Shown here in pieces: positions 22,929 to 45,000 of a stretch of DNA of 64,000 nucleotides; position 1 is the first letter of the stretch; every line of letters begins with the position of its first letter. The notes under the pieces are model-generated. The model searched no databases, was not told the DNA's origin, and worked only from the letters and a program-made list of their open reading frames with translations. The translations under genes were made by a program, and so were the position numbers. The DNA is taken from NCBI RefSeq assembly GCF_037975245.1, contig NC_092564.1, positions 1,937,984 through 2,001,983 on the forward strand. Direction: 5' to 3'. The stretch comes from Apostichopus japonicus. Lineage: Eukaryota; Echinodermata; Holothuroidea; Aspidochirotida; Stichopodidae.

Positions 22929-23508
22929 GTTTGATGCAACTGTTTATGCACAGAGTACTCAATAGTTCTCATTCTGTATAACAAAGTCACACTGAGTAGC
23001 ATCAAATATATTAGTAGCTTGCCTGTAGAAACATTTATACCATTCGTAGCAGTCTGTAACTCTTTGCATTTAAGATGCGGGTCCAAAATTGTCACGGTGA
23101 CAGGCTGGTAAGGCAATGCCAGCTCTTTGTGACTGTGATTTGGTGAGAAGCAATCCTTGATTGCATTGATATTGAATACAACACTGGCCACTGAAGTGAT
23201 TTTGACAGGAAGGGGACCAGGGGTGGGCACTAAATGGATCTTGTGGGCCTCATGAAAAAGTTTGTACCCACAAGACTCAAGGATGTACCTTACCCTGTAA
23301 AATGGGAATCTTGAATAATAAATGGGCCAAAGCCAAAATTGGTCATCCTCAAATCCCAAAAGTAAAGTTATTTCTCTGGGAGAAATTTATTTTGGGCTCA
23401 TGGCAGTACTAATTAACACTTAAGAGTAAAAAAAAAATAAAAAAATCCGAAAAATTTCGTTATCAGTGATATAGAGGTCGTTGAAATCTAAAAAGATGCG
23501 CACTAGGT

Positions 23509-23878
23509 GCGAGGGACAGAATTTAGTCAAATTGACCTAGCTGAAAATTAGGATGGGTGAGGTAAATTTGGTTTTCTGTAATTTGATGTTCATCTCTAGT
23601 GCAAATTATTCATTGGAAAAGTTTTGAATTTTTTTTGAAGAAAAATGAAGAAAAATAGGAAAAAACGGTTCAAAATTCCGTCCCTCGCATTTTTTGACAC
23701 AATTTTTTTTTTTTGAGAGAGAGGAAATAGTACAGTATGCATAAAAATCTGCAAAGTATCAACTATCAGTGACTTGAACATTTGTAGTGATGAAAGAAAC
23801 TGAACAAAAATATGAATGGTGCATTATGGGTAATCAACATTTTCGCGAGGGACGGAATTCAGTGCGAGGGACGGAATT
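23509..23878. repeat. GCGAGGGACGGAATT motif cluster with inverted copy (copy 1)
   Basis: Four occurrences: 23,509 (one mismatch, +), 23,674-23,688 (inverted), 23,845-23,859 and 23,864-23,878 (+). The inverted copy can pair with any of the others. It lies directly upstream of the transposase-like frame and may be part of that element's end. Confidence 0.7.
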
Positions 23879-23934
23879 CTGTTACAGTTTGGTGCTACAC
23901 GTCTGTAGTACTAATCTGTCGCTAATAGAAATAG

Positions 23935-24357
23935 TTGGCAGAACATACGCGTAAATTTCAACGACACAACTATAGCAGAATTCGACAGCATGCTGAACTT
24001 GCAAAGTTGAAGAAGGCACTTCCAGGAACAAACAGTGCTATCATCCAAGTGGACTTCAGCGAGAACTATGCTACCACCCAAAAGAATGAAATACAGTCGG
24101 CATACTTTGGCCACGAGAATTTCACATTGTACACTGTTTGTGCATGGTACGCTGAAGGTGAGGAAGTGAAGTGCAAAACCTACTGTGTCATCAGTGATTA
24201 CATGTCACATGACAAGTTCTTGGGCTTGCACTTCAATAAAGCTATCATTGCAAAGGTCCAACAGTTTGTTCCAAATCTGGATGAGGTTTACTTTTGGTCC
24301 GATGGCTGTGCTAGTCAATTTAAATCAAAATATTGCTTTAACTTCCTTGCCATCTGT
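23935..24357 (+). pseudogene. DDE-like transposase fragment (copy 1)
   Basis: A 141-codon frame with IQVDFSENYATTQKNEIQSA, then VISDYMSHDKF and YFWSDGCASQFKSKYCFNFL before a stop. The V-D-F-x-E-N and S-D-G-x-x-S-Q-F-K motifs look like the first two acidic positions of an RNase H-fold transposase seen in a protein type common in invertebrate genomes. The domain is cut at a stop where intact relatives continue, and the start is not a convincing N-terminus. I judge it a transposon remnant in the E-Syt intron. Confidence 0.55.
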
Positions 24358-25205
24358 TGAAGTATCACAAATACGCCTTGTAGGCTACATTACCACCCCA
24401 AAGAACCTTAAAGGCTGCAGAAGTTTAACACAATCCCATACATTGTACTATGCAACATGTCACCATCTAGGCTTCCATAGTAGTACCTGGTTGTCTGTCA
24501 TAATCATACTCCACCTTTCACCTGATTCATTTCTCTGGCAGTGTTTCATATGAGATAGCGTTCCCTCTGTCATCGTAAACGGCACAATTTAGCCTTTATT
24601 TAACCTAAATACTTTAACAAACAATAATGGCTTCATCCCAGACTCACATATAAAGTAGACCAACTATTTGTTTTCTATTATGATTATTTCAAGTTTTATT
24701 TAAGAGGGTACTCATTTAGCCAGAGCTAATCTTTAACAATAATGCAAACTAAATAAATAATACCAAAAAAAATCTAGTGAAACTCAAATAGATACAAATT
24801 TAAAACTTTATTAAATACATGAAAGTTCAAGCTAAAATGTTGTAAATTGACTGTGCACAGTAGCTGTAAAAATGGGGTTAGGTGTAGGATCCTAGAGTTA
24901 ATGTTGATTGGAATGGAAATCTTCAGGTCTAAATCGCATCCTCAAAGCATTTTAGCCAAGGTGAAAACGAATGATACTTTGTGAATGCATCTGGCAACGT
25001 TAGAGTGAATGATGTCACCATGACAATGGAGTTGATATTATCTTCGTTTTTTTCTTAACGATGTTTAAATCATTTGTGCACAATGGAATATATAAATACA
25101 GAGAACATTTAGAGCCAAAGCAAGCTTTCAAAAATGTACAACATGTAAGGATGATGGATCAAATATGATTATAGTAGGAAAAATTAGCTTTGAAGAAAAT
25201 CTGGC

Positions 25206-25556
25206 ATGATGACATTATAAATGACATCATAGATGACATTATACATGACATCATAGATGACATCATTAGATGACATAGATGACATCATTAGATGACATCA
25301 TAGATGACATCATTGATGACATCATTAGATGACATTATTAGATGACATCATAGATGACATCATTGATGACATCATTAGATGAAATCATAGATAACATCAA
25401 AGATGAAATCATAGATGACATCATAGATGACATCATTATATGACATCATAGATGACATCATTGATGACATCATAGGTGCCATTATAGGTGACATCATAGA
25501 TGACATCATTAGATGACATTATTAGATGACATCATTAGATGACATCATAGATGACT
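25206..25556. repeat. ATGACATCAT(T)AG short tandem array (copy 1)
   Basis: Around 27 units of 12-14 bp, each with TGACATCA, one base from the CRE palindrome TGACGTCA. It lies in the E-Syt intron and recurs at 55,070-55,420. Confidence 0.9.
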
Positions 25557-28500
25557 TCCTGTGATCAGGTTTCTGAAGGAAAGGAGAGTTAAGCCAGTCA
25601 AAATAGTTAACATTCTATCAATCCTATCTGGAATTAGGATATTAGGAAGGTATATTGAGAAGGAGTTTTCTTCAACTAACAACGTGGAATATTTTTTCTC
25701 TTGAGACATCTTGCATTGCTTGCTCTCAAAACACCACTGTTTGCTGATAATTGTAAGGTTTTGTGTTAGCTGTATTCATCGTTATCATGTTATGCAACGT
25801 GATTTAAGCTGCTTTAATTACATTTATACAACAATGCATAGAATTCTTCTGTATATAACAACTTCTTTTATTTTGGTATCATATCATAAACAAAAATATA
25901 TGCTGGTTCTGTGTGCTTTCTTCTCTGTCTCACCAAATTCCTCGCTAAATGCTTCCCTCTGCTTTGGTATGTTCAGTTCAATTAACAGCCTCCTTTCTGT
26001 GTTTGAAAGCATCATTGTTCTTTGTTTGTATCATTCCTGTTGCTCAGATGTCATTTTATTAATTGCTTTTATCTGTTGTAACTGTCATGTACTGTTATCT
26101 ATGATATGCTGTCAATTTGCAATAATTCTGTTTAAAACCAACCATTGTTTCTGTTCAATTTTTGCCAAGTAGACAAGAAAAATTGAATTGATATTCAAGA
26201 AATTCAATGAAAACTGACAAATTCATGAGTTTTATCACTGAGGCGTGAAAAAACAGAAGTGTTTATTAAATAGTTATCACTGGCAGAGTGGGATTGCAGT
26301 ATTCAAGTTGGAGATATTATTGTAGGCATTTGGAACACTATATTTTTGCTTGTGCTCATGTTTAACAAGCACATAAATGTTTTTGAGAGAGCATTTTGTT
26401 TTAGAACATTGTGTTTTTATAGTATTATTCAGAAAACCATTATTGTATACTTACAGTATGGAAAAGCAATAAGTTTATGCAACTGTTCTGACAAAATAAG
26501 TATTGTTGAGAAACCTCATTACAGTTTGTGAGATGGTAAAATTGATCATCTCCTTAGATGTCACTGAATATTAAACGGATTAATTTTGTTAACTTACTAA
26601 TCACATCTATGATCAGACTCTGTCAAAACCACTGTTGCAATGACATGACCTGTACCTGACCTTTACCTAGATGTGTCAAGATTCAAATAATCATGTTCAA
26701 TCATATTCTATTCTTGTAGTAGTTGGAATCATTCCATGAACAACCAACTGGAACGCCAAAGCTTTTATATATAGGATTCAATAAATTAAACTCACTGCCT
26801 TCTTTCCCTTCTGTATCATAGCCAGGAAATGTTTAACGTTAATCTGATCTTTCACTTTGTGTGACAAATCGGGTACTGTATAACAGGAAAAGATATTATA
26901 ATTTATCATCCGCGGTTACAATAATTTGTCCTTAATGTTGAACTTCTGCCTTCAGGGTTTTTCTTTGGTTTTTCTTTGTTAGTTCCATTAAAATTTAAAT
27001 GATTAATCCAACTTGCATTTAGCTTCAAGGTTAAATCGTGGGACAATGAATTTGAATTGAATTAAAAAACTTGAATTAAATTGAAGAAATGATACAATGA
27101 GAGTGAGTATTCATGCTACCAAATACATGATTCAGATTTAAGTCTCCTTGGGTTTATATATATGGATCAAATAAGGCCTTGAATCCAACCAGTGTGGTAA
27201 TTGCCTTTTCAAGAGATGTTCAAGTTTTTTATGTTGTAACCTTATAAATAATATCTTGTTGTAGTTTAGAAGCTAACAGCTTTGTATTCTCAGCTCTGCT
27301 TTGCCCTTCTTCAGCTTTGTTTTTGTTTGCAATCCTTTTGTTTCATTATTGTTTGACTATCCTCTTTCCTTAAAGTACTATTGTTTTTCAACCTGTTTTC
27401 CTATTGTGTTATACTAACCATGCATGTTCCCTGTCAGCTGTTCAATATACAGTCAAAGTTAACAACAAGGTCAACAGATATTTTGGTCTTCTTTTATCTC
27501 GTCATTTTTACTGCTATTGTCTTTTGTCTATTGTCTTTTGTCTTTTGTTTTGTTTTTGTACAGCTTGTGCTTGCTTTGCTTTTCATTTCATACTTCTAAC
27601 ATTAACATCGCTGTAATTTAATATATTATACTTTTCAAACATGTATGAAGCATCACCATATTGTCTGGTTGTGTCTAACATAGTAAACTGAAATAGAAAG
27701 TAAGCTTTCTCCTTGTCGCGCGATAACAAAAACATGTGTTAGTAGCTTTTCCTATCGATCGGGGGTGTGTTTCATTTAGTAGTCAAGAAATAGTTTTGTT
27801 TGCGTTTCATATGTACACAAACAAGGAGAGTCATATGTATGGTTCAGTGATATTCATCTGTTTCGATATGAATTATCTCAGATTATTAAAGGGGTAGTGT
27901 CTATGAAATACCAGTGGTCATGCTTCGTGAAAGTGATCCTGGAAACTGAATTGATGGAACATTTGCAAGTAATAGCATTGGGGTTGGTACAGTTTATTAT
28001 TTGGGCCATTCATACTTCAGCTTTGCGAGACAGGTTGGAGTGGGGGACAGGTTGGATTGGGAGAGGGTCTAATTATGGTCATCAAACGGTTTGGGTGGGA
28101 TATGAGCCGAGAAGTGGAAGACAAGATTTAGAAGTGGAGACTAACCTTTCTGCTTAAACAGTGATTTTTTAATAAATATGTGTTTGTTGTTTATTAAATG
28201 TTCAGTCAATGTACAATCAAATGACATAGGTTGGTAAGGAAAAGTTTTCAAAACACGGTGTTAGATGAAGATGTTTTTGTTTTATGAGATGTGGCTGGGG
28301 GGCGGGGGGGGGGGGGACAGGTGGGAAGGATGGATGTGTGTGACATAGAACAAAAACTGTAGCTATTCATATCAAAGAAACAAGTTAGAATTTGAAATAA
28401 TCACTTTGGAAGCAGCCTCTGTTCATAATTTCATTTTTTTCATTTTTTTTTTTTACCGTTAAAATGTTGAACCATTTATGACCAGCCAAACCCCAACAGC

Positions 28501-28577
28501 CTACATCTAAGATGTACTGTGTGTAGTTATGTTAGGCTTTGTGTACATAACATCTTCACCTTTGTATTTTTATTCAG

Positions 28578-28661
28578 TGATCCCTCTGCCAGTGGTAAAA
28601 TACAGCTGACGTTAAACTTTGACGAGAAGAACCAACTATCAGTGACAGTCCATAAAGCACT
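28578..28661 (+). CDS. Extended synaptotagmin, last C2 domain exon 1 (copy 1)
   Basis: The acceptor tattcag is followed by SDPSASGKIQLTLNFDEKNQ then LSVTVHKA and two bases of Leu. G-K-I-Q-L-T-L plus L-x-V-x-V-H-x-A is the opening of the C-terminal C2 domain of E-Syt2/3-type proteins. Phase 2 on entry matches the end of exon b (N-S junction). The donor is GTTAGT. It splices over the Harbinger-like element to 30,312. Confidence 0.85.
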
Positions 28662-28709
28662 GTTAGTTCATTTTTTCTCTTGGTTTGGTGTGTTGTTGTC
28701 AATGATTAG

Positions 28710-29775
28710 ACTCCGGTCACAGGTACATTTTTTCAGACATAACGATGGTCCGACCATGGTACGGTATGCGTGTGACCGCTCTCTACTATGGTCTGACCAT
28801 CGTCCGACCATCGTCCACTAAAGATGGTAATAAGCATCATTAGCCCCGAATTAAGCATGGTCCGACCATCGTTAGCAGGAAGAACCATGCGTGTGACTGC
28901 AATTGCGTTATACGACTATGCATTTTAGCATTAACACTGATCGCTGGAAATCCAGATTTCAATCCCTTGACATAGCGACGCGTGCCTAGATACATACGAT
29001 GTAAACAACACAAACCTGCAATGCACTGCATACTGTACACTAATACATGAACTGTACATACACACGTACGGTTTCTACCACAAAACAACACAACAGTCAA
29101 CACTCCGGACAATTGGACAAGACAACTCGCAATGGCGGCCACAGCTCCCGGTAAAACCTGGGAGGAACAAGAAGTCCTGACACTCATTGATATATTTTTG
29201 GGGAAGAAGATACAGAGTATGGTGGACAACACCGTCAGGAATAAGAAGGTGTTTTGGAAGTGCGGGAGATGATGGCGAAAGAGGGATACGAACGGACGCA
29301 TACGGAGATTAGGGCCAAAGTCAACAATTTAAAGAGCTGGTATCCATTATATTTCGCTGTGTTTTAGGAATGAATATGCGTCTACACGCTCTCCGTCGGC
29401 GAACAGCAGCTTCTTGTCTTTGCAGGAATGCTGCTTCCAATATGTGACGCCTCCTTCGTAATACAAATCTCATAAGAATCAATGCGCTACGGCAAAGTGA
29501 GCTTCCATAGCCATCATTTACTACTTACAACTAAAAACCCTGCGAAACATCATCAAAACCGTGACCCTTGACCGACCCAATGCAACTGCGCATGATAGCT
29601 TTGCGAAAGCATAATTAACTCACTGATGCATGTGTCCGCAAAATAACTATCGTCCGAATATAGTACAATTAGTCGTGTGAGTACGCGTGACCGCTACCGT
29701 AGTTAGTTTAATATGGTCGGACTATAGTTAAGAAACGATGGTTGGAAGATGCAATTTTATACGTGTGACCGGGGT
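28710..29775 (+). mobile_element. Harbinger-like element with Myb/SANT relic (copy 1)
   Basis: The element is 1,066 bp. The left end ACTCCGGTCACAGGTA and right end TACGTGTGACCGGGGT form imperfect terminal inverted repeats. Both sides are flanked by ATTAG (705-709 and 776-780 of the respective blocks). Subterminal regions repeat ATGGTCCGACCAT-type palindromes. It encloses a broken Myb/SANT-like gene, the accessory protein typical of PIF/Harbinger elements, and no transposase. It sits in an intron of E-Syt. Confidence 0.7.
29132..29367 (+). pseudogene. Myb/SANT-like DNA-binding domain, frameshifted (copy 1)
   Basis: From ATG 29,132 the frame reads MAATAPGKTWEEQEVLTLID, then a helix to NKKVFWKC, and hits TGA at 29,270. 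One base out of frame it continues EMMAKEGYERTHTEIRAKVN and NLKSWYPLYFAVF-stop. The W-x-x-x-E start, V-F-W and K-V-N-N-L-K-x-x-Y end fit the trihelix/Myb-SANT domain of Harbinger accessory proteins. One missing base breaks it. The A1 copy at the window start is more decayed. Confidence 0.6.
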
Positions 29776-30311
29776 ATTAGTTATAAGTAATAATGTTCAC
29801 ACCCTTTCTATATCAATACATTGTACAACCTGCTGGGGTTTGGTGTTACATGATTCCTAAATTAACTTTACATGGTTGAGAATATAATAAAAGAGTCAAT
29901 TGAAAATGTAGTTACCCTCATAGGTTTTTTTTTTCTTTATGTGAAAAAGGAAACACAAATGAAACTGGTTTTGTGAAATAGAGCTGTACTAGCCAGCTAT
30001 GATGAAAGTGTACTGTAGTTTAATGGCAGCAGCCTACATAAATCCAACAAATCCTCCCAAAAAAGGGCTTTTCTGTGCCTTTCTTAGAGTTTTTTATCTT
30101 GAAATGTGTATTCAGTAATATATCTGGTATCAACCAACAAATTCCTCTCAAAGTGGTAATGGTATTCCTATTATTTGTATTTCTCTCCAAAAGATATTAA
30201 CCAAACGTTTAGGTACAGTTAGTCTATAAATTGTATACACTGCGGCTACATTAAATTTGACATTTCTGACTGGAGTTTATGATATCATGTTTGATTGCAC
30301 CCTCTCTACAG

Positions 30312-30446
30312 GGGTCTACCATTAGAGGATGCCCACCATCCCCCGGACCCTTACGTCAGGATCTACCTGCTCCCAGATAAGAGCAAGTCTGGCAAGAGGA
30401 AGACAGATGTGATCAAGGAGACGAGAGATGCAACATATGATGAGAT
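30312..30446 (+). CDS. Extended synaptotagmin, last C2 domain exon 2 (A2 copy)
   Basis: Same exon as 1,080-1,214. Completes Leu and reads GLPLEDAHHPPDPYVRIY, LLPDKSKSGKRKTDVIKETR, DATYDE. Acceptor ctacag, donor GTGAGA. Sequence is fully open and in phase with 28,578-28,661 and 31,252-31,357. Confidence 0.85.
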
Positions 30447-31251
30447 GTGAGAATCAAATCATTTTACACCCCCCCCCCCCAAAAAAAAGAAACATGCCAT
30501 ATTAAGGTCTGCAAGCAGAACCCAAACAAATATAAATGTGGTATTACATGTGTGAAAGGGTTCATATAGGCCCCTTTGACCTTAGGGGCACACCTTGGCC
30601 CAGGCATAATTTCTCTATTGGGTAATCCGGCAATGATTGTACCCTCACGGTATCCTGCCCTACTAAATATATTATGTAGGTATTTAGAAAAGTCATTTGA
30701 TTTGAATTGTAATATGTTCTCGTTTTCCTCTGTGTTTGTTCACGGTCATTGGAAAACGTTTGCCCTGAAGAAGTCTCATACATTTATGTTACTGTGTTAA
30801 AAGTTGATAACATTGATTCGATTACTCAACAATGCTTACATGACAAGTGGCTCTATAACAGATATTTAATCAGGCAATCTAGCCCCCACCTCCTACCACC
30901 CATCAACATTGATTATATCACCCCTGACCCCTCTCCCATCATCTCCACCCCCCCCCCTTACCATCAAGGCATGAACTGTGGATAAAGTTAAGTGTTGATC
31001 CTGTTGGTGCTAATTTTGAAACTGATGGGCACTTCTTGGGATTATGGAATGTTCATCCCATTGACAGTTATGTCCAAAGTACGGACAACAAAACAATGAA
31101 AGTGCTAGTTTATGTCAGTATGGCTTTTTTCTTTAATATGCCGGTATCTGTGCTTTGTCATCTCATTCAGTTCAATGTTACAGTAAACCAGGTCAGTGAC
31201 CTCTAGACAGAGTATCACTCCTTTTTCTTGTTTCCATTTTATATTCGTCAG

Positions 31252-31357
31252 ATTTGTGTTTCCCTGTAAAAGAGCTGACCTTTCTGACCGGACGCTGGAC
31301 ATTGCAGTCAAGAATGATTCGTCATTTATGGCTTTGTCGAATCCACTTCTTGGAAAG
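31252..31357 (+). CDS. Extended synaptotagmin, last C2 domain exon 3 (A2 copy)
   Basis: Identical in protein to the A1 exon at 2,037-2,142 (R-T-L-D-I-A-V-K-N, N-P-L-L-G-K). Acceptor ttcgtcag, donor gtacga. Confidence 0.85.
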
Positions 31358-31963
31358 GTACGATCAAGATCTCTTTATGTCACAAACTTTGTTCGTTTTT
31401 TTTGGAAAATATTTTTGAAAAAAGATGAGCGATACGACAGGGAAATTCAAAGCAATCACATTTTCCTTGTAGCTTAAAAATAGTAATAATAATAATAATT
31501 TATTTTATAAAGCGTAAAATCCACAAAAGTGCTCTAAAACGCTATGTAACAGTAAAAAAAATATATGACACATAATATGTAGTAAAACTGCAGAATAAAA
31601 TACAATCAAACTTGACCAAATGTTGAGGATTTTCTTTTGATTGTCTGACTTACAAGAGTCAGTGAAAAAAAAATCATAAATACTTTACAACAATGCTTAA
31701 GTTGCATGTAGATATTAGTTATGGATATTTGTAGCTTTGGCCTGTGGATAGTAGTTCTTATTCCATCAAGGATTCATACTCCCATCTTGATGCTTAGTTC
31801 TGCTAAGGGTCTTCTTTGACGTTTTAAGTTCAGTTATTAACAACCTAAGCATGAAAATAAATTTTACCATCAACATTCCTCAGCATGATGACATATTTAT
31901 AGTGCAATCATTTCATACTTATTTCCCATCAACCTTTCCAAGCCCTATCCAAGCCCTTCTTAA

Positions 31964-32573
31964 AGCAGCATTTAGCGTCCTCTCCTATGATTTTTCTCAA
32001 CCTCACTGACTCCACTATGCCATAACTGCATACATAACTAGCTTGTCTATTTAAATCTTACTTCAAATGGTGGCATAAAAGTCGAAAAATTTGCAACTTT
32101 CAACTTTGTTTTTCTCCAAGATATTTTCCGTTGGGATCCCATTAAACCTCGCCCATAATATGAATATTTAAACACTACGAACGTCATTGACCAATACGTA
32201 ATACAGCACCATGTTTGATTTGTGTACAGTCTATATGGCAGTTGTACCAGGGAGTTCCATAACAACTCCCTGGTCGTACCAACGCAAAGTCTTGAATCTA
32301 TTTTTAGCAACGGCTCGTAACTAAAACTGCATCTCTGATTGGTTGAATTCACACTAGTGGATTTGGGGGAACTGTATGCGATTAATTTTAAATGTGGAAT
32401 TTGTCGTGGACACTTTTCTCATTATCTGCAAATATCCTTAATTACTCGCCAATTAACGTTGTTGGCAGGGAAAAACTTGGCTAATATCCTAGTTTGCTGT
32501 TTTGTGATTGATGTAAAAAACTTGATGGACATATCAAAAAGTAGAAAATGGCAACCAAACACAAAATGCTGCT
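31964..32573. mobile_element. TTAA-flanked MITE, 610 bp (A2 copy)
   Basis: Bounded by TTAA at 31,960-31,963 and 32,574-32,577, with inverted ends AGCAGCATTT and AAATGCTGCT. The A1 homologue has an uninterrupted CTTCTTAAAAGTCC at about 2,741-2,754, so this is a clean filled/empty pair. TTAA targets are used by piggyBac and Kolobok-type transposases. An internal ACCAGGGAGTT...AACTCCCTGGT hairpin lies near 32,247-32,275. It sits in an E-Syt intron; the 127- and 101-codon frames across it are not genes. Confidence 0.85.
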
Positions 32574-32873
32574 TTAAAGTCCTGACAATGTATCAAGCTA
32601 TCAGTGGTTTCATTTGTAGTAGTATATTGTGTATATCTTCAGTATCTTGTATCTTCATTTGTAGTAGTATCTTGAGTATATCTTCAGTAGTATATCTTCA
32701 TGAATATGCAAGAATTCATTAGCATGTTAAAGACCTAAGACATACTCTGTAGTCTTTGGTTGGTGCAGTTGTATTATTTACTTGGTTGAAACCATGGAAA
32801 CAGCAGTCAGCCGAAACGGTGGACTTATTTGTGCTCTATTTATGTTTTATATATTTAATTTTTTTTGTAACAG

Positions 32874-32923
32874 CTTTCTCTAAATCTTGGCCATCTCGAT
32901 CTTGATGAATCTGTGACAGAATG
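32874..32923 (+). CDS. Extended synaptotagmin, last C2 domain exon 4 (A2 copy)
   Basis: Encodes LSLNLGHLDLDESVTE and the start of Trp; one Asn/His difference from the A1 exon at 2,990. Acceptor tgtaacag, donor GTAAGA. Confidence 0.8.
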
Positions 32924-33524
32924 GTAAGAATTTGATACTTTTTGTCATGTTTCTGTTTTGTTTTCATTTGGTTGTTTGTAAATATTTTCATATTGCATAG
33001 GTTAATAACTGCTTTGCCATTGTTGAAATGCTGTTATTGGTAGCATTTGTTTGATTGTTGCATTTACCAGTGCAAATTAAACAACAGTATGCCGTCTTGC
33101 TATGTCGAGACTTCTCTATTAACTGTTGACCTCATCTTCACAAACTAACATCACTTTTATTTCTGAAAAAGTGCAGAGTGAACGATCAAGAGGGGGTGGC
33201 GGGAGTGGATGGTGAGGCAAGGAAGCTTTAAGTAAATCATTTGAAGTGTGTGTTTTGCAGCAGTTTAGTCTAAAATGGGGCAATCAAGTGTTTAACAACA
33301 TTTGTGTCAAAGTGTGACTCTTATATTCTGTGTTGAGATTTATATTCTAAGGCCAAAATTGACCCACATATTTTTTCCATAATTAGTATAGGGACAGGGT
33401 GGTGCTAAAAATATGCGGGAAAATTCGGGGGGGGGACCTGAAATCTCTGACACGTTGATTATTCTTATATTGAGTTGCAGTATTCTATTTTCTGGAACCT
33501 CAGGTGTTTGAAATTGCTTTGCAT

Positions 33525-33620
33525 ATAATAAATAATAATAATAATATCTATTTATGTAGCGCTTTACATTAAAGAATAATATCAAAGCACTTCTATGGGG
33601 ACTATAGTAAAATCTGACAA
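33525..33620. repeat. (AAT)n with adjoining TTTATGTAGCGC module
   Basis: AATAATAATAATA is followed by TCTATTTATGTAGCGCTTTA, an arrangement seen at ends of dispersed retroelements in marine invertebrates. The A1 homologue is at 3,650-3,740, and related modules with TTATTTTATAAAGCG lie at 31,484 and (degenerate) 2,263. The element family is not identified. Confidence 0.45.
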
Positions 33621-34185
33621 AAAACAAGTATAAGATACAAACAGGTTAAATAAAAGGAATAAAGTAGTCAAAGCAAAATCATAAAAAAAAAAAAAAAAAA
33701 AAGTTAATGAAACTAATATGAATAATATTAAACAGACAAAAACAAGATCAGTCATTAAAGAACATGATAAAAAGATAAGTTTTAAGTTGGGACTTAGTGC
33801 AATCAAAAGTGGGTAAAAAGACAAATTATTTTAACTCAAAAATAAAATGGGGAACGAACCGAAAAGATTTCTGTTTGACTGAGATAAATGTCATGAAGAT
33901 ACCCCATCTTGAGACTGACTTGAATCCTTAATAAAATGTTAACATTTCTATTATCTAAGGCTTTAATAGGTATTAATGAACACCCAAATGTATCACATTA
34001 TGTTTTTTTATATATTTTTTTATTGGCCGTTTAAATATGATAAAATAATGCTGCCTAATGAATAAAACGCATGGGGAATTGGTTCGTATAATAAAAGTCT
34101 AAGGACTAAACCGCAACTGAAAGAGAACTGACTGATCAAGCATGAATTTGAAGAGGTTTGTCTTGTGTTTTTATTTTCTGCACAG

Positions 34186-34207
34186 GTATAACTTGTCTGC
34201 AGAATGA
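34186..34207 (+). CDS. Extended synaptotagmin, short terminal exon (A2 copy)
   Basis: Completes Trp and encodes YNLSAE-TGA after ctgcacag. Differs from the A1 exon only by a silent G/A in the last codon. Confidence 0.75.
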
Positions 34208-34705
34208 GTGGCTTCTACACCTTGCATGAGTTAACCAAAGAAATATCTTCTGAACCGAAACTGCCGTCCCAGTAGTACCTGTTGTGAAAGGGTTCGTGGT
34301 CAATTGGAGTGACACCATCCTATTGATCTACAAGTCATGAATTTGTTTGTTTTAAGCAATTTATCTTTTACATTTTGTAATATGTTTTGCTTTGTTAACA
34401 GTGCATTGAAAATGCTGTCATATATTTGTCAGGTGGGCCTTTATTTGTCACTACAAAAGTCAGTTGAGCTTCTACTATGATCACTGGTGTTCTAGTGAGT
34501 GTAATGCAATGGTTCTTTGTTGTCAGTGAAACAGAGAAATATCTGTGGACTCGGAGGCCTTGTAAGCTTGTAAGGCCTTAAGAAGGGGAGGGGGAGGCTT
34601 CAGGTGTTAGATTCAGCTGATTACATAATGGAAAACTCAATGCATTTTTGCATTCTGATTAAAGTGCCTAGCTTTGATCACTGACGGACCCCTTTCACGT
34701 CGTTG

Positions 34706-34945
34706 TTATGTGGGCCTTTATTTTGTGTTATTTTGTTATTTGGGCCTTTATTTTGTGTTATTTTGTTATTTGGGCCTTTATTTTGTGTTATTTTGATATG
34801 TGGGCCTTTATTTGGTGTTATTTTGTTATGTGGGCCTTTATTTGGTGTTATTTTGTTATGTGGCCCTTTATATGGTGTTATTTTGTTATGAGAGCCTTTA
34901 TTAGGTGCTATGAGTTATGCGGGCCTTCATTTGGGTGTATTTCGG
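34706..34945. repeat. 30-bp minisatellite (A2 copy)
   Basis: Same eight-unit array as at 4,827, with some units differing in TTTTGTG versus TTTGGTG, which shows internal exchange between units. Confidence 0.9.
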
Positions 34946-35657
34946 GTTCAACTTATTGCATACCAGTCATGAGAAATTTGCTATGAAAGTTTAGTACCTT
35001 TTCAGTACAGTTCGTTTTGGTTTTATTCAATGTCCAAGAAAGTATAGAGATGGGAGGTCTGCTTTTGAATTAGATCATTCTCTGAAAGACTCTAAAGGGA
35101 AATCATATTTTCACAACATTGAAATAAGCTTGAAAATGTCAGGTACCAAATGTCACAGGGGTTAGGGGGGGGGCAGGGGGGAGATTGATGGAGGGTATTT
35201 GTCATTCTACTGGCTTTGAATGTCCAGCTTGACTTGCTTTGAAAACATTGCTTCCTACATTTGCTACAGTAAGTAAGAAGAATACAAGCTATAGGTCTGG
35301 TGGTTATTTTCAGTACTACTTACCTTGAAATTAATTTTAATATCCTTTTCAATCCGTGCTTATCTGTGGATTTGCCACTATCGTCTGTTTTTTATAAGAG
35401 TTGGAAACTGTCATTTGTTTTTTTCTTTACTATGTGGTTTATAGCAGATTGTTTATATTTTCACAAACACAAGAAAAGACAAATGCATTTTTTTTTTGTG
35501 TCACACTGTGGTTAAGAAGCATAATCCATTGTTATTGATGACTGCCGCTGCATAATCGTAATCCAGACTGGTGACTTCACAATCATATCATAAAGGAAAA
35601 AATTGTTACTAAACTGCTTATCTATCGCAAAAAGAAAAAAATTAGTCTAGTCTGCCT

Positions 35658-35688
35658 CTGAAGAATGTCCTGCTAGGATTGAAACGTC
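35658..35688 (+). other. Hammerhead-ribozyme-like motif (A2 copy)
   Basis: CTGAAGA (the conserved CUGANGA core), a hairpin GTCCT-GCT-AGGAT, then GAAAC and GTC. This is the order of a minimal type I hammerhead with a very short stem III, as described for Penelope-like elements. No reverse transcriptase remains nearby. Confidence 0.45.
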
Positions 35689-36072
35689 GGGCCCTCTAAC
35701 TTTAACATATTTAATGTTTCTGTTTAAAGAGCCATCCAGAAACATCACTTAAATAGAGTGAATCATCTGTTTGTGTAATGACAAAAAGAAATGAAATAGA
35801 TTGATGGTTGCTAGAATGAAAGGAAGTTCAAGAATTGAAAGTTATAGAAGGAAAAGAACTGAAATGATCAGTTGGAAGTGGACATACTTGTAGTGTGAGT
35901 ACAATGTCCCGAGTATGAGTGCAAGTACTGAATTATGTGTACAGACTGGAGTACTGTACCTGGAAGGGAATAATTCATTTGCAGTTTGCTGCATTCATCA
36001 ATTCTTTCTTTCTGAGGTCGTATTGCACAAAAGAGATGCCATTGGTGAACTGTAATCTGAAAGCAAGATGGT

Positions 36073-36318
36073 TGTTATGTATGTATGTATTTTAGATCCT
36101 CCTGCAAGCAGGAACTTGCGAAAAAGCCATCATTAGCTTATCAAAGCCACAAGCTGACCGAAGTCAGTCTCTTAGATTCATATTTTAACGTCCATGATTA
36201 TGAATTGTAAATTGTCAACAACTCTATAACTGGACGACATACATTAATCTTGGAGTGACTCGAACTCAGGACCTTATGATTGAAGGGCATCGGCGTTAAC
36301 CACTGAGCTAACACTCCC
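36073..36318 (-). mobile_element. tRNA-derived SINE (A2 copy)
   Basis: Same element as 6,187-6,486. The tRNA-like head is at 36,252-36,318 (minus), and the tail is reduced to a few TACA units. Confidence 0.65.
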
Positions 36319-36649
36319 TTGTCAAATTTTACTCCATCAAAACACAATTTGTACAGTTTTTAAAGAGAGCTGAATTAGAAGCAATCGTTCAGCTTTGCAA
36401 TGAGTAATGTCTCCAGTCACTCAATCTCTAACGTGAAAAAGACTTGAATATATTTGTCATGTTTTGCTCGCCTAGAAATAGCACAACTTACTACAGCCCT
36501 GCAATGGATACAGAAGCTTCATACCAACTACTTACCCTAGATGTACAGTACTCTGGTAGTAGATTTAGGTACTTGATTCTAGTCTTCTAGTTCCATAAAA
36601 TACTTGTGTTTGTCAAGTTATGCCAAGCTAATGTTTGTCAATTTAGCAG

Positions 36650-37045
36650 ACTAATTACCAGCTTATTGTACCACTATGGTGGCTCATAACCAGCTTACTG
36701 CACCATTATAGTTACAAGCTTACTGTGCCATTATAGTTACAAGCTTACTGCGCCATTATAGTTACAAGCTTACTGCGCCATTATGATGACTCATTACCAG
36801 CTTACTGCACCATTATGGTGACTAACTACCAGCTTGCTGCACCATGATGGTGACTAATTAACAGCTTACTGCATCATCATGGTGACTGATTAACAGCTTA
36901 CTGCATCATCATAGTGACTAATTAACAGCTTACTGCATCATCATGGTGACTAATTAACAGCTTACTGCACCATGATGGTGACTAATTACCAGCTAACTGC
37001 ACCATTATGGTGACTAATTGCCAGCTTACTGCACCATTATGGTTG
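36650..37045. repeat. ~31-bp minisatellite, expanded (A2 copy)
   Basis: Homologous to 6,866-7,146 but longer by roughly 110 bp through amplification of a TTATAGTTACAAGCTTACTG subunit and a CATCATCATGGTGACT subfamily. Confidence 0.9.
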
Positions 37046-38278
37046 CAAAGAAATGGTTTGAAGCACTTGTGTGGGTCATGCACTAGTTATAATATCTAGA
37101 AGTATATCCTGTTGTGAGGTTGCTCTGTTCTTTTGAAATTTAATATATCAGTATGCACTTCATGAAGTTCCTGTAGATTTATTGTTACTGCAAGTTGCTG
37201 GTAGGATCTTTGTTTTTAAGTTACATTTTGTTTGATTCAGCCTTAGTGTGTCCATTGGAAGGTGCAGCTTTTATTCAATTGTTTTTATCCTTTATTTTCC
37301 CAAGATTGATTCTTTTTTGAGGTTGTTTTCTGTTGTGAATTTGTTTGAAGCCTTGCTTTATTTTACATTTTTTTTGGTGCATATCTCCGAAACGATAGAG
37401 GTTTTATTTGTGTTGTTTTATTTACTTGTTTTGTTTTCTTGCAATTTGTTTTTGTATTATAAGACCACACTGAAATTGTACTCTTATCAGCTTTTACCAT
37501 ATGTGTTTTTTGTTCTCAAGTGTTTGGAGGGTCTTATTTTTATTTTGTTTTTTATTTTTTGGGGTGCCAATTTCAGTTATTATACATTACCACTATATCT
37601 GAATGAATGAGACATTTCACACCCTTTGCCTAGTTAAGTCAAACTTAACGTAAAATTAATTCCTCTTTATTCAGTTAAACTCAGATCTAATGATTCCATA
37701 TATTCTGCTAGAAATTTTCATAATTCAATATTCGTTCATTTTTCTCCTACCCTATGAAAACTACATGAATGTAGTCATGTAAGTGTGAATCCAAGTCACC
37801 TCCAAGTATGTTTAATACAACATCTGAAACTGATCAACTCTGACCAAGGCTGGCCATTTGTTGCTTTCGTCATTTATATGGTATCTTGTTGTCATAGAAA
37901 ACGATTATTAATGTTATTTGATCAGAATCAGTGCCAGAGGATTGCATGGTGAAAATTTAGACCAATCCAATGAAATTTGACATTTTTGGAGGAATATGGC
38001 CCAGCTTTGAAAGCAATTTTTTGTGCTTGGTTGGTCAATTTTAAGATTGCTACTGTCAAGTATAAAATCATAAATTCTCAAATGAATATTGCGATGGACT
38101 GAATCAAACTGAGACACCCTTCTTTGTCTTTGTACTCAATGTAGGCCAACCAGTGAATAATTAAACATACCTTCTGGTTCTCAATATTTAGTTGCCAAGA
38201 CACTAGTTTTCAAATAAGTATTTTAATTCAGTATACACTTGTCAACTTTCATTTTAACCTTTTGAATGTTTTCGCCAG

Positions 38279-38360
38279 GTTTTGCCTTGATAGGGATAAT
38301 CCGGAGGAAGTATCCATGAATTCTATATCTGCTACTGCTGCAGCAGGCAATGATCTCTGA
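38279..38360 (+). CDS. Extended synaptotagmin, alternative terminal exon (A2 copy)
   Basis: Completes Trp, then FCLDRDNPEEVSMNSISATA, AAGNDL and TGA. Relative to 8,333-8,411 there are silent ACA/ACT and GGT/GGC changes, one Phe/Cys change and one in-frame Ala insertion, consistent with selection on the frame. Confidence 0.65.
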
Positions 38361-38799
38361 GGAAGACTAAGAGGCTTTTGATAATATTTAAACTGATTTA
38401 TTCAACTGTTGTGTGCTTTTGTGTATACATACACTACATTGTTTTGTGAATCCTTTCAAATTCTTGTGTAAGTAAATTCTTGAATGTTTTATCAACACGA
38501 ATGTCTTATGATTTTACCAGTATTTGGAAAGAGGGACTCTTACTACTACAAGTCATCTCTCAAATGTCAAGATGACTTAAAAGTCAAGATACCCAGACTA
38601 TTAGTTTTATTTTCATTAAGATTGTGGCAAGTTGAATGGTATGTTTCCATTCTTAATTAATGGAAACTTGATGTAACAAGTAAAGATGACAGCAATGTTT
38701 TAAGTGTTGCTATGTCCAGATGCATGATGTTAAATAATTTAGTCAAATCATGTTTTCATATTTGTTAGTAATACACTCACATGTTAACCTTCAAACCTC

Positions 38800-39310
38800 A
38801 CAACCTTCTACCCGTGTTCGTTTCTCCTGCATGATTCTCCTTTCCCTATTCCTATCCTCATTCTTCCTCCACTTCCCTTTTCTCTCTTCTCACCCTTCCC
38901 ATCCCTCTTGTACATCTCTCAGCCCTTCTCCATCCTCCTCCCAATTCCAATTGACCTTTTCCCTTCCTCCCCCTTCCCTTCCTCTCCTCTCCCCTCCTTC
39001 TTCCTTCCCTTCCTCCCCTCCTCCCCTCTCCTTCATCCACCTACCCTTCCTCTCCCTCCCCATCCCCTTCCTCCCCTCCTTCCTCCTCTGCTTCCTACCC
39101 TCTCCTTACCAACCCCTTTCCCCTCCTGTCCTTTCTTCCTTCCCTTCCCTTCCTCCCCCTTCCTCCCTTTCCTTTTCCTTCCTCCCTCTCCTTCCCCTCC
39201 CCCTACCTCCTCTTTCTTTCCACTCTCTCCCCTTCCTCCATTCTCCGTCTTCTCCCTTCCATTCCTTCCTTCCCATTCCTGACAACCCTACCCTTTCTCC
39301 TCTCTGGACA
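38800..39310. repeat. Polypyrimidine tract (A2 copy)
   Basis: About 500 bp of C/T-only character, with numerous small length differences from 8,930-9,420. Overlapping open frames (193 and 124 codons) are compositional. Confidence 0.85.
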
Positions 39311-39472
39311 TTTCTCTCCCCAGTGCTGTAAATATTCTGTAGGAATTGTTTATGTTTATTCATGTGCCTTACATTGTGTTTATCTTACACTAATACAAGT
39401 TGGTGTTTGGTATTCACTATTCAGTTCCTCATTATTCAGTGGTGGGTAACTAACTGCCTCTGTTTCAATCAG

Positions 39473-39507
39473 GTCAACACAGAGAAAGTATCTACTATGC
39501 GGGGTAG
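39473..39507 (+). CDS. Candidate third terminal exon of extended synaptotagmin (A2 copy)
   Basis: After tttcaatcag: GQHRESIYYAG-TAG in the phase of a possible GC donor at 38,347. The only base change from the A1 copy is silent in this frame. Weak support. Confidence 0.28.
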
Positions 39508-41415
39508 AGAATTACCTGCTTGATGCCATTTTGTTCTAGTGTATTGTGCTAACATTAGTTCATAACACATTTACTAAGTGCTCTATCTGAATTTCTTTTT
39601 TTCAAAAGTGTGTTTATTTTTACCTTTACTACAGCTGTTGTGTACATATATTCCTAATACAAGATAATTGGTATATCAGGTTATCATGTCCTATAGGATG
39701 AATATCCTGTTATTTAAGTTATTTAGTTAATAATTGAAATTTTTAAAAGAATGAATTCTTTGCTTGTAAGTCTGACAATGGGTTGGACATCAGTCACCCT
39801 CCTTCCACCTCTTGTACACACACATACCAAGAGGAGTCACAGTTTGGCAGATTTAACTACCTCTTGGACTATTAACCCAAGAGTACTGTTATAGTCACTC
39901 AGATCACCGGGAAATTTCAAACGTAATAACTAGTAACAGTAAGAGGAGTACAACCTCCCACCAGGGGTGGAGTGGGGCGAGTGATAGTATTGAAGCAGAG
40001 GGAATGCTTAAAACTGGAACATTGTGTACGTATAAACATAGTTGTGAATGGCCTCTATAGCTCCCCTCCTACATACTGTCAACTGCACATGCCGTGTGGG
40101 GTGGGGTTCAGTAGTTGGACTGGTGGCCACAACAACCATTTGAAAATTTTGCAAGATAAAACGTGGTAAGAGAGATGAATATATTTACGTATGCAGTTTA
40201 TGTAATGTTTTCTTGAATGAAAAACGAAAGAGTATTTTTATCTTGTGAATCGTTGCTGTGATTAATCTTGAAAATATATTGAAATCAGAAATAAACAGGG
40301 TTTGTTTCCATAATTTATTGGATTTTCAAACGAACTTGTTCATCAATTTATTTTGTTTATATTTGATGGGCCATCGATGATGGTACACCTGGTGGGTAAG
40401 ATCTCAGGGGCTACGGGGGGGGGCAAGTGTCCCCAGCCCCCGCACACTATAATTACCACTTCTTGCTAATGACAACTATACTTTTATACGGGTCTGCTGA
40501 GAAAAGCCGAGCAGGAAGGAAGTGGTACAGCGAGTAAGCTCTCGAGATATCCCATAAATTTGAAAGTTCTTCAATGTTTCCAAATAAATAGATCTCGAGC
40601 CATGACACACGATGGTACCATCTAAACATCTTAGGAGTAATTCACTGTAATGTAATACTGTCTCAAGTTCAATTGATCAAATAGAATAATGAGCAAGGAC
40701 ATACGAAAGAATAATTTATAGAGACTTGAGAAGTTCTCGAACTTTCAAAACGAATAAGGAACATGATATGCATACTTGCATCTCAGTTTAAAAGGAGCCC
40801 AGTCTTCTATATATCACTGACTATGTTAACTGGTAGGGTACGACAAAGTCACCAGCTTTCCCTTCTCCGCTTACACTCCTTCATAAAATGGAAGAATCAA
40901 GACGGAAATAGTAAATTAAGATTTATAAAGTTTTTCAGAGGTGCTCGATCTTTACACATTGAAATGTTTGTCACAATATATCTACGGATAAGTTGTTCAT
41001 CCATCTATAGTAAGAAGAAAAGGCGAAGACTAAAAAAGAATAAATTCACGATTAGATTTAACAACATCAACCAAAAGAAAATGTTCCCATATAGACCTTT
41101 AAGCAGGTCTAGCACATATATGATTGTTTACTTTTTTTGTAACGGAATCAGCCATGGAGAGATTTCGGTTGACATGAGTTTCAATATAAAGTTGCGAATA
41201 AAATGTACATAAATCGTGATGAACTCGGGTCGCTTGGTCCATTTGCATGTTAACACTGAACTTTTGTAGACCTACTAGTTGGGAACTTCGTCATGTCATG
41301 TCCTGAAGAAATTACTTTACTCTATCACTTTGAAAGTATGGTATGTAAAGGCTTCCGTTCACTATGAAACAATAGATGAGAACTCTAAAGTTTTTTTTTT
41401 TAATTTTCAATTGAC
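39508..41415. other. Intergenic, no gene recognised (A2 copy)
   Basis: Homologue of 9,619-11,556. The 149-codon frame at 40,763-41,212 is basic and Lys/Arg-rich, has no recognised domain and is not open in the A1 copy. Confidence 0.55.
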
Positions 41416-41422
41416 TATAAAT
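41416..41422 (+). promoter_or_regulatory. TATA box of RNase A-like gene (A2 copy)
   Basis: TATAAAT, 183 bases before the ATG, at the same relative position as in the A1 copy. Confidence 0.5.
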
Positions 41423-41604
41423 CAACTCTTCAACCAGCAATACTTGAATTCGTGACATATTAAAAGCAGCCTCACTCATTCTTTAACCAGAAAGAGTCTC
41501 GCACTGTTTTTGTAAACCACAAACTATCCAGTTAGCAAATCTAGTTGCCTGCATTTACTTCGAAAAATAAATCTGTGAATATAGAGAAAAAGAGCAGACA
41601 CACG

Positions 41605-42084
41605 ATGAGTTCTCCAGTTCGACTCATATACATCCTCTTCTTTGTTGGGTTTACCACTGGTGAATTCTTTGACGATTTCGATCCGTTTGAAGAAGCTGTC
41701 CTCACAGCCAAAAGGCGGCCGCGTCCATGGCGTGCATTTAAATGGAAGCACGTGTATTCTCGGCACCGCACCTGTCCCAAGAATATATCATGGCAAGATT
41801 TGGCACAAAAGCGTCTGGGACAGCAGTACGGAGAACAACGAGAAAATCAGTCCTTCATCTGTGTCTGGAACGATATGGCAATCACTGATGGCTTCACAGG
41901 TGATCTCATACCTTGTGGGAAGAATGACCAATTCAAATGGAGTAACCGTCCGTTTGACTTGGTCCATATGGAGTGGAATCACCGTGATGATACTTACGAT
42001 GTCATATACAAAGGCCCTGGGTATATCTGCGTCAAGCTCGTAGGCGGAAAACCGGTTCATTTTGACTCTTATAAAAAAAGTTAG
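41605..42084 (+). CDS. Secreted RNase A-like protein, variant 2
   Basis: 159 aa, no intron, signal peptide MSSPVRLIYILFFVGFTTG, same length as variant 1 despite internal indels. F45-KWK-H49, R79-ENQSF (79-84) and P150-V-H152-F-D correspond to the His12, Lys41 (Arg here) and His119-Phe-Asp regions of RNase A; spacing is 30 and 68 residues. The C-terminal PVHFD is closer to vertebrate RNases than the variant 1 form (PTHFH). Cysteines at 57, 86, 104 and 142; only 104 and 142 have counterparts in variant 1. Residues kept in both include K-H-V, D-L-A-x-x-R-L, Q-S-F-I, M-E-W, K-G-P-x-x-I-C and L-V-G-G-x-P-x-H-F. An upstream ATG at 41,545 would add 20 residues and hide the signal peptide, so I reject it. 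Confidence 0.68.
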   Translation: MSSPVRLIYILFFVGFTTGEFFDDFDPFEEAVLTAKRRPRPWRAFKWKHVYSRHRTCPKNISWQDLAQKRLGQQYGEQRENQSFICVWNDMAITDGFTGDLIPCGKNDQFKWSNRPFDLVHMEWNHRDDTYDVIYKGPGYICVKLVGGKPVHFDSYKKS

Positions 42085-45000
42085 TTTTGAAAATAAGAAG
42101 AGCTGCATTAGAATCATCTTTAGTAGGGGCAGATGTTGGTGTTCGGTTGATATTTTATCTGACATTTAGACTGACAGGTTATCGTTTAATACAAGCTAGC
42201 GTCGATTGATATCAGTATTTTTCAAACACTTTTGTTTCTATTTTCCAATGGCATATGCGAGGTTTAAAAAATGAACAGTTGTCTGAAAACTGTATTGAGA
42301 CCGGAGGATGGGGTATAATCGAGAAGTAGTTATAAATATCGAAGACGAATGAAGAAGAATGTTATCTCCTCTCCTCTTCTCTGGAAGTGTCGTCATTCAT
42401 CATCTGAAGTACTGTACATTATATGGGAGTGACCAACCCCTCCACTAGATGAGCCATTCCGTACCATCTTGATAATCGAAAGTGCTGTAAACAACATTAA
42501 TGCAGCACAAAACATTGAATGTGATATTATGTAATAACTGGGAGTGTCGTCATGAAGCATGCATGAGACTCGTCGAACCTAACACCAGTTCAGCCGTTAC
42601 ATTGTCGATAGCGACCTGTGTTAATAATATTTCATAGACGAATTCAGACAAGTTGGCAAAGGAATCTCTATCATTCCGTGTATATCTTGTCCATTGGAGG
42701 ATAAACAAGAACATTGGCATAGTAAAGTATAACAACAGCATTTCAGCAATAGCAAATACAGTTTCAAGACTTTGCTTTCAAAAGTATTTATAAACCCATC
42801 ACACTGTTGTATATGTTTTGTTTCAAAGGATTAATTATCACTAATAATATTTTCCACTGAACTTGAAAGTAAGCATTGGATAATCAACACCAGGTTAGAA
42901 GTTAAGTGAGAAAATACGCCATCCTTCCTGGAACACATGCACCTCTTCTACAAAGTCGTCCAGCGATTCATACAGATTGCCATGGCTGCCGTCGTGTTTT
43001 CTTTCATAGACGAGTTCAACATTGTCAAGATGGACAAGAAATCGCATCAGGTTAGCATCTACCTTGGCAAACGTGGAAAGCTGGAAGTCCATTCACATAG
43101 TATAGAAATGACTCTTCGTATATACATAAATAAAATGTAGGCATGTAAGAAATAATCAAATCTGACAGTACTTATTGTCATAACTTGGAACATAATCCAT
43201 TGAAGTTTTAACATAGTTTCGTTTCGATTTAAAACCTAATTAAAAGAACGTTACTCAATAGTTGACTTATCTCAACCCAATTCAGACCTTTGTTCAGTTG
43301 TTATTTTAGAATATACTTTGCCATTTCTCTGAGTTAAACAATAGTAAGCGTCTCTCTTTATCTTCATCTGAAATGATATTACCTTTTACAGTACTCCAAG
43401 CCAAACGGACATACCTGTAACAGCAATGCTTTGTTTATTTGATTAGAACTGGTTAATTGCGGTGAAGTGGTAACACCTGACACTGTCCGGTAAACCTTAT
43501 AAATTAAGGAATCTCTCGCTTATTGATTTTAATCTGATCAACTTGAAGTACCTTTAAATATTAATCCTTCCAAGAGTACCATCCGGGAAATCGTCAATTC
43601 GAATGAATTGTTGCATCACATATAGTGGAAACCTTTGCTGAATCCTCGTTGAGGGAGGTGAGTGCAATAATAGTGATAGCTAACGTACCCCCTCTCCCCT
43701 CGGGTGCACCCTCTTCGCCGTAAGTCAGTGTGTTTTGCATTTAATACAATATGTGTTGTCGATGGGTAGCAAATCACTCTTTGGACAAGGTATGCATCAC
43801 TTTTGGATGTACGGTCTCCCTCGACGTATGTATTCAACAGCAACCCCCCCCCCCCCCCATCCCAACATCCAGTAACTATACACCACTACATGAATCTACT
43901 GCGTATATCAGATCCAGTATAAGGAAGAAACGTTTGACTGTTCCAGCGTTTTTTGTTGTTGCATATTTTAGATTGTAAAGACTCGGTTCCCCGCTTTATG
44001 AAAACCGGCCAATCAATATCGTTAATATAGGCCTAGTCTCACAGCGCTGTCGTATACCACAACTGGCGTTTGTACTGACGCGTGCGTATTTGGTTGATGA
44101 TTTCTTAAAATTTGGCGATTGAAGCGAAAAACGACTTTCGGCTGTGAACTTAGGCGTGGGTGGGCTGCCCCCCACCCCCACCCCCAACAAGATATTCCTT
44201 GAAAATTCGGAGCAATGTGCTGATATTGTTTCGGGCACTAATGTGACAAAATTAAATAAACTTCAATGTGCCTAATTCTGTTTGATGAGAGTCAGTAGTT
44301 CCGTACAAACACCAGCCTCAGGTAATTAGCCTAACGTTCTAAGCTTGCCCGAATGATCTGACATTGATGTTGTGGAGTTTTCATCGTTCGTACTCCATGC
44401 TTTCCTTCTCTGTCCCAAGAAGATGTTATGATAATCCACTATTGGCATTCGTTATAACAATCGAATTTAAAAGGTCAGGGGGATCTCACCAGTAAGACCC
44501 TATTGGCTACATTAGTCGGGCAAATCGTTACAGCCCCTCCCCCCCCCCCCCGACGTGTAACGTTTAACGTTAAGTACTGTCAAATATTTGCATTGACGAA
44601 GTCAGATTTTGTTTAGTTCAGCGCGGAGTTCATGAAACAGTTTTATGAAGCACACTTTATAAGGCACTACTTCATTAAGGATGCTTGCGATGAGATATGT
44701 AACTCAGTGGATTGCCTTTATTTGGCAACGTTCTTGTTGATGTGTCTACCTTGTTCTTGGTTTGGTAAACGGACTTTTCAGTTTAACTATCGCGCGCCCT
44801 CATTCGAAAGACTTTGTTGGCATATAATGTTTTGAGTAGGTAGCAGGGCTCTAGTACTCTACGGAGTCCATTCTCTGCGGAATCGAATTCTGGCTCTGGT
44901 TGGCTTACACTCGGACCTGGAGTGCCATGGATTGCTGACAGAGTCCATTAAGTTTCTAATCATCTTAATTGCAAGATGGCATGCAAGGATTTCATATTTT

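Follow-up and report, generated by a model that had tools for sequence, protein, structure and literature searches.

The RNase A superfamily (PF00074) includes RNase 1, the angiogenins and the fish RNases, whose genes combine an uninterrupted coding frame with a signal peptide, and its mammalian host-defence members are marked by duplication with positive selection, as set out in part of PMC3845642. The same part places RNase genes in vertebrates only and reports their absence from tunicates, amphioxus and invertebrates; the family is termed vertebrate-specific in passages of PMC2720953 and PMC6794472, and a passage of PMC5964141 states that there is no putative invertebrate intermediate and that the origin of the superfamily is not known. 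Among the amphibian members (onconase, amphinase and the bullfrog RNases), onconase carries Lys9 at the place of Gln11, where it matters for catalysis and is aligned by the N-terminal pyroglutamate (part of PMC3397563). RNases 9–13 lack some canonical RNase features (another passage of PMC5964141). RNase A-type chemistry has also been proposed for the bacterial toxin domains CdiA-CT Ykris and MafB2-CT, and the former has no disulfides according to part of PMC9086364.

A tandem gene array of the sea cucumber Apostichopus japonicus encodes proteins that resemble the vertebrate RNases in domain length, signal peptide and uninterrupted coding frame and that, like the mammalian host-defence RNases, appear to have diversified by duplication with positive selection. 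They are distinguished by their echinoderm host and by an acidic propeptide with a dibasic site. Searching the complete assembly with a protein query revealed seven tandem copies on C4, named A1–A7 (Table 1), and two of them, A1 and A2, lie in the window, the stretch of 64,000 nucleotides analysed here (C4:1937984-2001983). The family occupies at least ten genomic places at E ≤ 0.001, namely the seven on C4, one piece on C21 and two copies on C22; two extra single-protein searches of the assembly yielded no new family places, and these counts are lower bounds. For A2, assignment to the family relies on its place in the array and on a match to A1 at 48% identity (E 1.6e-30), and the open 159-codon frames that the initial annotation had described for both genes were borne out.

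Table 1. Features of the RNase A-like array, with positions counted in the window and gene starts on C4.
Feature	Window position	Strand	Start on C4	Description
A1	11747..12226	+	1949730	open frame, 159 aa; paralogue compared with A2
A2	41605..42084	+	1979588	single open frame for a predicted 159-aa prepro-RNase A-like protein; member of the family of at least ten places
A3			2009551	array copy
A4			2021137	array copy
A5			2033579	array copy
A6			2044016	array copy
A7			2058264	array copy
Tandem unit, about 29.86 kb	12144..42007	+		first 26.6 kb recurs from 42008 on (self-BLAST)
A2 upstream conserved stretch	41455..41604	+		putative core promoter (TATTAAAA) and 5' UTR
A2 signal peptide	41605..41664	+		20 codons, by eye; hydrophobic start conserved in the seven array copies
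A2 acidic propeptide	41665..41727	+		ends in the basic run KRRPRP; cleavage predicted
A2 RNase A-like domain	41728..42081	+		from family profiles and joint alignment
A2 His49	41749..41751	+		aligned with RNase A His12; invariant in 16/16
A2 Arg79	41839..41841	+		aligned with RNase A Lys41; Arg in 9/9 echinoderm sequences
A2 His152	42058..42060	+		aligned with RNase A His119; invariant in 16/16
A2 3' UTR	42085..42240 (end approximate)	+		2–10% divergence over 21 pairs
A1 RNase A-like domain	11867..12223	+		from profiles and joint alignment
A1 His48	11888..11890	+		aligned with H12
A1 Arg79	11981..11983	+		aligned with K41
A1 His150	12194..12196	+		aligned with H119

The two C22 copies lie about 360 kb apart and make up a further family branch that is more distant. 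One (L009, C22:25632968-25633480) is intact and has a hydrophobic start different from that of the array copies; the other (L008, 25993408-25993874) contains a stop and a frame change. The piece on C21 (L007, C21:20127530-20127904) is 78% identical to the array genes and has no signal peptide, its DNA similarity of about 390 bp covering essentially the domain alone. Within the array, A6 shares only about 766 bp (the gene and its near flanks) with the other copies, and unit-like sequence begins again only at a distance of about 4 kb in each direction, an arrangement that would result from movement of the gene as a cassette or from replacement of its flanks. A6 nevertheless keeps about 143 bp of the A2-type upstream conserved stretch between otherwise unrelated adjoining flanks, and this stretch probably comprises the 5' UTR and a putative core promoter. 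Elsewhere in the assembly, five COX1-like pieces with internal TGA at C29:14745-31219 resemble mitochondrial DNA in a rearranged stretch. The mitochondrial COX1 of the assembly uses AAA for Asn, and the frame after it, named by eye, resembles nad4L, which is the echinoderm gene order.

The relationship to RNase A emerged from searches of the protein domain and of family profiles. With phmmer against the PDB sequences, the A4 domain (C4:2021137) matched human RNase 1 with an E-value of 9.2e-5 over residues 5–114 of 116, and five of its eight matches belonged to the RNase A superfamily; A1 alone found amphinase-2, an RNase A relative, in first place (E 0.57), two of its three matches being of this kind. 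The A2 protein and the C22 protein, each searched alone, found no RNase at E ≤ 10 among the PDB sequences, and because of this the case for A2 rests on its paralogues. A profile of nine members had 32 PDB matches at E ≤ 10, of which 26, among them the 23 highest-ranking, belong to the superfamily (best E 3.2e-4), and a domain-only profile of eight members had 28, of which 26, with all of the first 22, belong to it (best E 4e-4), many of the matched chains being variants of the same few proteins; neither CdiA-CT Ykris nor MafB2-CT was among these 32 and 28 matches. The reversed sequences of the eight domains gave no PDB match. The frame-broken C22 copy entered none of the alignments, and the C21 piece entered the nine-member and the joint 16-sequence alignments but not the eight-member domain alignment.

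Profile-to-profile comparison by hhalign aligned the family with seven vertebrate RNases over 110 columns at 97.2% probability (E 4.7e-11), compared with 0.3% for the reversed family profile; with bovine RNase A alone the value was 1.1%. Identity of the echinoderm sequences to bovine RNase A is 14–23%. A Pfam scan of nine family members returned no family at cut-off, RnaseA being touched by one of the nine (E 0.11) among four weak families, and a search of the genome with PF00074 did not find the array. Superfamily members share a kidney-shaped alpha+beta fold; AlphaFold on the A1 and A2 proteins, in both orders, produced low-confidence models (pLDDT 33.9 and 35.8). Taken as a family, the array proteins are well supported by these profile alignments as homologues of the RNase A superfamily. 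This identity goes beyond the initial annotation, in which the protein was left unnamed.

When nine echinoderm sequences were aligned jointly with seven from vertebrates, F8, H12, F46, S75, P117 and H119 proved invariant in 16/16, so that both catalytic histidines are present in all nine echinoderm sequences, as is Phe120. The catalytic Lys41 of the vertebrate enzymes is replaced by Arg, and the signature CKxxNTF by RxxQ[S/T]F, in 9/9; Gln11 is Lys in 9/9, Gln takes the place of Asn44, and the Thr45 position carries Ser or Thr. In RNase A, the K41R substitution costs most of the activity. Of the six to eight cysteines conserved in the superfamily, the six that are invariant among these vertebrate sequences are not conserved here: the positions of C26, C95 and C110 are occupied by invariant Trp, Val and Leu, C84 by Met in 8/9, and C58 by Phe in 7/9, the C22 sequence having Tyr and the C21 piece Cys; the C40 position varies. 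Two other cysteines, at the alignment positions of C65 and I107, occur in 8/9, the C21 piece having neither, and their pattern fits a single disulfide that they may form. Lys41, CKxxNTF and the conserved cysteines of the vertebrate RNases were each looked for and are not retained in the array, and for this reason it is placed beside the superfamily, as a homologous and divergent sister branch, and not among its canonical members.

Onconase, amphinase and the bullfrog RNases share with the array the spacing Q-x-W-x-x-F-x-x-K-H, with a Lys adjoining the catalytic His. This K-H pair, before and at the first catalytic His, is found in 9/9 echinoderm sequences. The Gln corresponding to Q1 of the onconase module Q1...K9-H10 is found in four of the seven array copies and in both C22 copies, where the motif follows a dibasic site at onconase spacing, with KR before Q in A4, A5, A6 and A7 and RR before Q in the two C22 copies. 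The remaining three array members have no KR|Q; A1 has RR before E, and in A2 and A3 this place is taken by other basic residues. At the YIC/FC position of the amphibian RNases, 8/9 array-type sequences carry the Cys as well. The C-terminal disulfide is specific to the amphibian RNase branch, and its C-terminal partner Cys is absent here. Further differences from the amphibian enzymes are an Arg at Lys31 and an N-terminus that would be generated by a dibasic cut. The coding frames, read from the genome sequence, are single and open with a hydrophobic N-terminus (signal peptide judged by eye), in keeping with secreted proteins of intronless coding region; most copies show, by eye, an acidic propeptide, and the mature pI is 8.5–9.3 in seven of eight proteins and 5.1 in A6.

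The seven array copies were aligned with 1.5 kb on each side and compared by segment. Between A1 and A2, 7.2% of bases differ in the far 5' flank, 6.3% in the roughly 175 bp preceding the ATG and 10% in the signal-peptide codons, after which the value rises to 36.7% (63% identity) in the rest of the coding sequence and falls to 8.6% in the 3' UTR and 2.3% in the far 3' flank; identity of the mature proteins is 43%. The estimates of the initial annotation, about 60% at the nucleotide and 40–45% at the protein level in the mature part, between a conserved signal peptide and conserved flanks, are therefore close to the measured values. Its claim that the change runs from the cleavage site to the stop was right in that divergence rises just after the signal peptide and falls at about the stop, and needs correction in that the propeptide also lies inside the divergent part. 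The contrast extends to 14 of the 15 pairs among the six copies with homologous flanks, in which the coding sequence after the signal peptide differs by 23–37% and the far flanks by 2–9%; A6, with its unrelated adjoining flanks, was left out of this comparison. The exception is the recent pair A4–A7, with 2.0% in this part of the coding sequence against 3.3% and 5.8% in the flanks.

A similar pattern is familiar from the snake-venom phospholipase A2 isozyme genes, whose coding exons outpace the non-coding parts after duplication. In both systems the non-coding sequence is conserved and the coding exons are faster, but the phospholipases are unrelated proteins from genes with introns, and none is apparent in the coding frame of the array.

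A1 and A2 had been read as haplotypes or units. As two of seven tandem paralogues on one scaffold, they are not shown to be haplotypes. Window positions 12144-38721 recur at 42008-68600, running beyond the window end, with 99.2% identity over 26.6 kb, and other exons of the two units therefore look identical. For the same reason the near identity of E-Syt exons, which the initial annotation had set against the divergence of A1 and A2, fails as an independent control: anything inside this block is near-identical. One possible E-Syt candidate, the ORF at 28519, had no Pfam match. The stretch C4:1897447-1903942, 34–40 kb upstream of the window, holds three same-strand matches to the SMP domain, of which one exceeds the family cut-off; they are perhaps exons of the E-Syt-like gene that was meant. 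The 26.6-kb duplication stops about 3 kb short of the following gene copy, identity falling there to 90%, and a boundary of this kind points to unequal crossing-over that left a chimaeric end. Both units also contain an identical 141-codon ORF (window 23935-24360 and 53799-54224) that looks mobile-element-like by eye and had no Pfam match at cut-off.

Codon analyses of the array, from which the C21 piece and the frame-broken C22 copy were excluded, place the excess of change in the secreted part. By the NG86 method, pooled pN/pS is 1.31 after the signal peptide, 1.40 in the domain and 0.76 in the signal peptide, and omega after the signal peptide exceeds 1 in 17 of 21 pairs and is below 1 in four. 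A codon likelihood model gave an omega of 2.40 (2dL 25.9 against omega 1) for the part after the signal peptide, 2.73 in the domain (2dL 27.9) and 0.93 in the signal peptide; both halves of the domain lie above 1 (4.02 and 2.18). M2a was preferred over M1a with 2dL of 74.9 (after the signal peptide) and 78.5 (domain), assigning 50–54% of sites to an omega of 5.2–6.5, figures that recombination among the copies can inflate by breaking the single-tree assumption. The largest 2dL in null simulations was 3.39 in 24 M1a runs and 5.11 in 24 omega-1 runs, which covered the gap-free domain only, used one optimiser start compared with two for the observed M2a, and resolve p only to about 0.04. Forty-two domain sites have P(omega>1)>0.9, none of them at the columns of the two catalytic histidines or Arg79.

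Fourfold degenerate sites in shared codon families differ, over all 21 pairs, at 55 of 596 sites (9.2%) after the signal peptide and at 11 of 241 (4.6%) inside it, which puts the neutral level near that of the flanks. One idea considered was that an old mature exon had been kept while gene conversion homogenised its flanks, as NG86 dS values of 0.12–0.56 (all pairs but A4–A7) had hinted. It was dropped on likelihood dS values of 0.05–0.18 in five pairs and on the fourfold sites, both far closer to the flanks, some excess being left; dS of array pairs is still somewhat above flank divergence. For A1 and A2 alone, the domain has an omega of 3.50 (dN 0.62, dS 0.18, by maximum likelihood), quite different from two fixed paralogues with dN/dS below 1, the case named beforehand as speaking against selection. 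Of the diversifying or balancing selection originally proposed, it is diversifying selection on the secreted part, acting among paralogues, that these analyses support, by omega in most NG86 pairs and by likelihood against simulated nulls.

The array thus very probably encodes secreted RNase A homologues under positive selection, and a defence role for them stands at about even chances. The most likely reading is that of secreted, proteolytically activated defence ribonucleases, in which both activity and role are deduced from sequence. The signal peptide would send the protein out of the cell, the acidic propeptide may hold it latent, and a dibasic-site protease would cut at KR|Q or RR|Q. Since the Gln lies behind the dibasic site at onconase spacing, such a cut would put it where onconase has its own first residue, and there it could cyclise to pyroglutamate. 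By their alignment, His48/49 and His150/152 would cleave RNA by acid-base catalysis, the invariant Lys that precedes the first of them could act as Lys9 does in onconase, and Arg would replace Lys41. Tandem duplication may then have been followed by positive selection that altered about half of the domain sites and kept the catalytic histidines; an arms race against microbial or viral opponents, or against an inhibitor, would fit such fast change. RNase A homology makes the defence role more plausible and is no proof of it.

The same RNase A-like protein could instead be a digestive enzyme whose copies have adapted to differing gut conditions. Sea cucumbers feed on bacteria-rich sediment, and in leaf-eating monkeys RNase copies have become adapted to differing gut conditions. 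A secreted protein that is presumably activated by proteolysis, with mature pI values from 5.1 to 9.3, agrees with such a function, but selected sites spread over about half of the domain at an omega of 5–6.5 exceed, in our judgement, what pH tuning needs, and the digestive reading is unlikely. We consider slightly less credible a non-catalytic RNase A-like scaffold for gamete recognition or signalling. Reproductive proteins typically change rapidly, and the replaced Lys41 and the absence of CKxxNTF point in this direction. The human RNases 9–13, which have neither motif nor triad, offer a precedent, being linked mainly to male reproduction according to part of PMC5964141. Against this, 9/9 copies retain both catalytic histidines, Phe120 and the Lys of onconase type while about half of the domain changes, which suggests that catalysis is under constraint.

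It is very unlikely that the contrast between A1 and A2 is mainly an effect of assembly or gene conversion, with homogenised flanks or with haplotypes placed end to end. The 99.2% identity of the units over 26.6 kb and a likelihood dS of 0.18 for A1–A2, above the flank divergence of 2–7%, speak for it; against it stand an N-free stretch of 134 kb that holds all seven copies, unevenly spaced, fourfold sites that differ at only 9.2% (55/596), near flank level, and an omega above 1 against the simulated nulls. A chance similarity of a lineage-specific secreted family unrelated to RNase A, to which the missing Pfam assignment at cut-off, the 14–23% identity to bovine RNase A, the fruitless searches with A2 and C22 proteins alone and fold models with pLDDT below 36 would correspond, is most improbable in view of the phmmer, profile and hhalign matches against empty or 0.3% reversed controls and of two catalytic histidines that align in the correct context.

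A report of an invertebrate RNase A was not found by title or abstract among the open-access papers listed in our searches, and later or unlisted reports may exist; the main text of the H. glaberrima genome preprint (PMC13228809) does not contain "ribonuclease", "RNase" or "angiogenin", and the whole-word term "RNase A" is absent from PMC3710099. The A6 protein had no relatives in one viral and one prokaryotic scan. In an unrooted tree of the 16 sequences, the echinoderm clade has a support of 100 and a long branch; grouping with frog and vertebrate monophyly fit this tree equally, and descent and old transfer are not separated by it. A tentative reading of the array, to which we give somewhat less than even odds, would imply that the superfamily predates the echinoderm–vertebrate split and was lost or overlooked elsewhere, and would set the array between the disulfide-free bacterial toxins and the vertebrate RNases.

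An echinoderm homologue, if confirmed as such, would make the origin of the superfamily testable through searches of other deuterostomes with the array profile. For folding research, the array would provide a naturally occurring relative of RNase A that lacks the conserved disulfides, and for echinoderm immunology it would offer a candidate for a fast-diversifying secreted effector.
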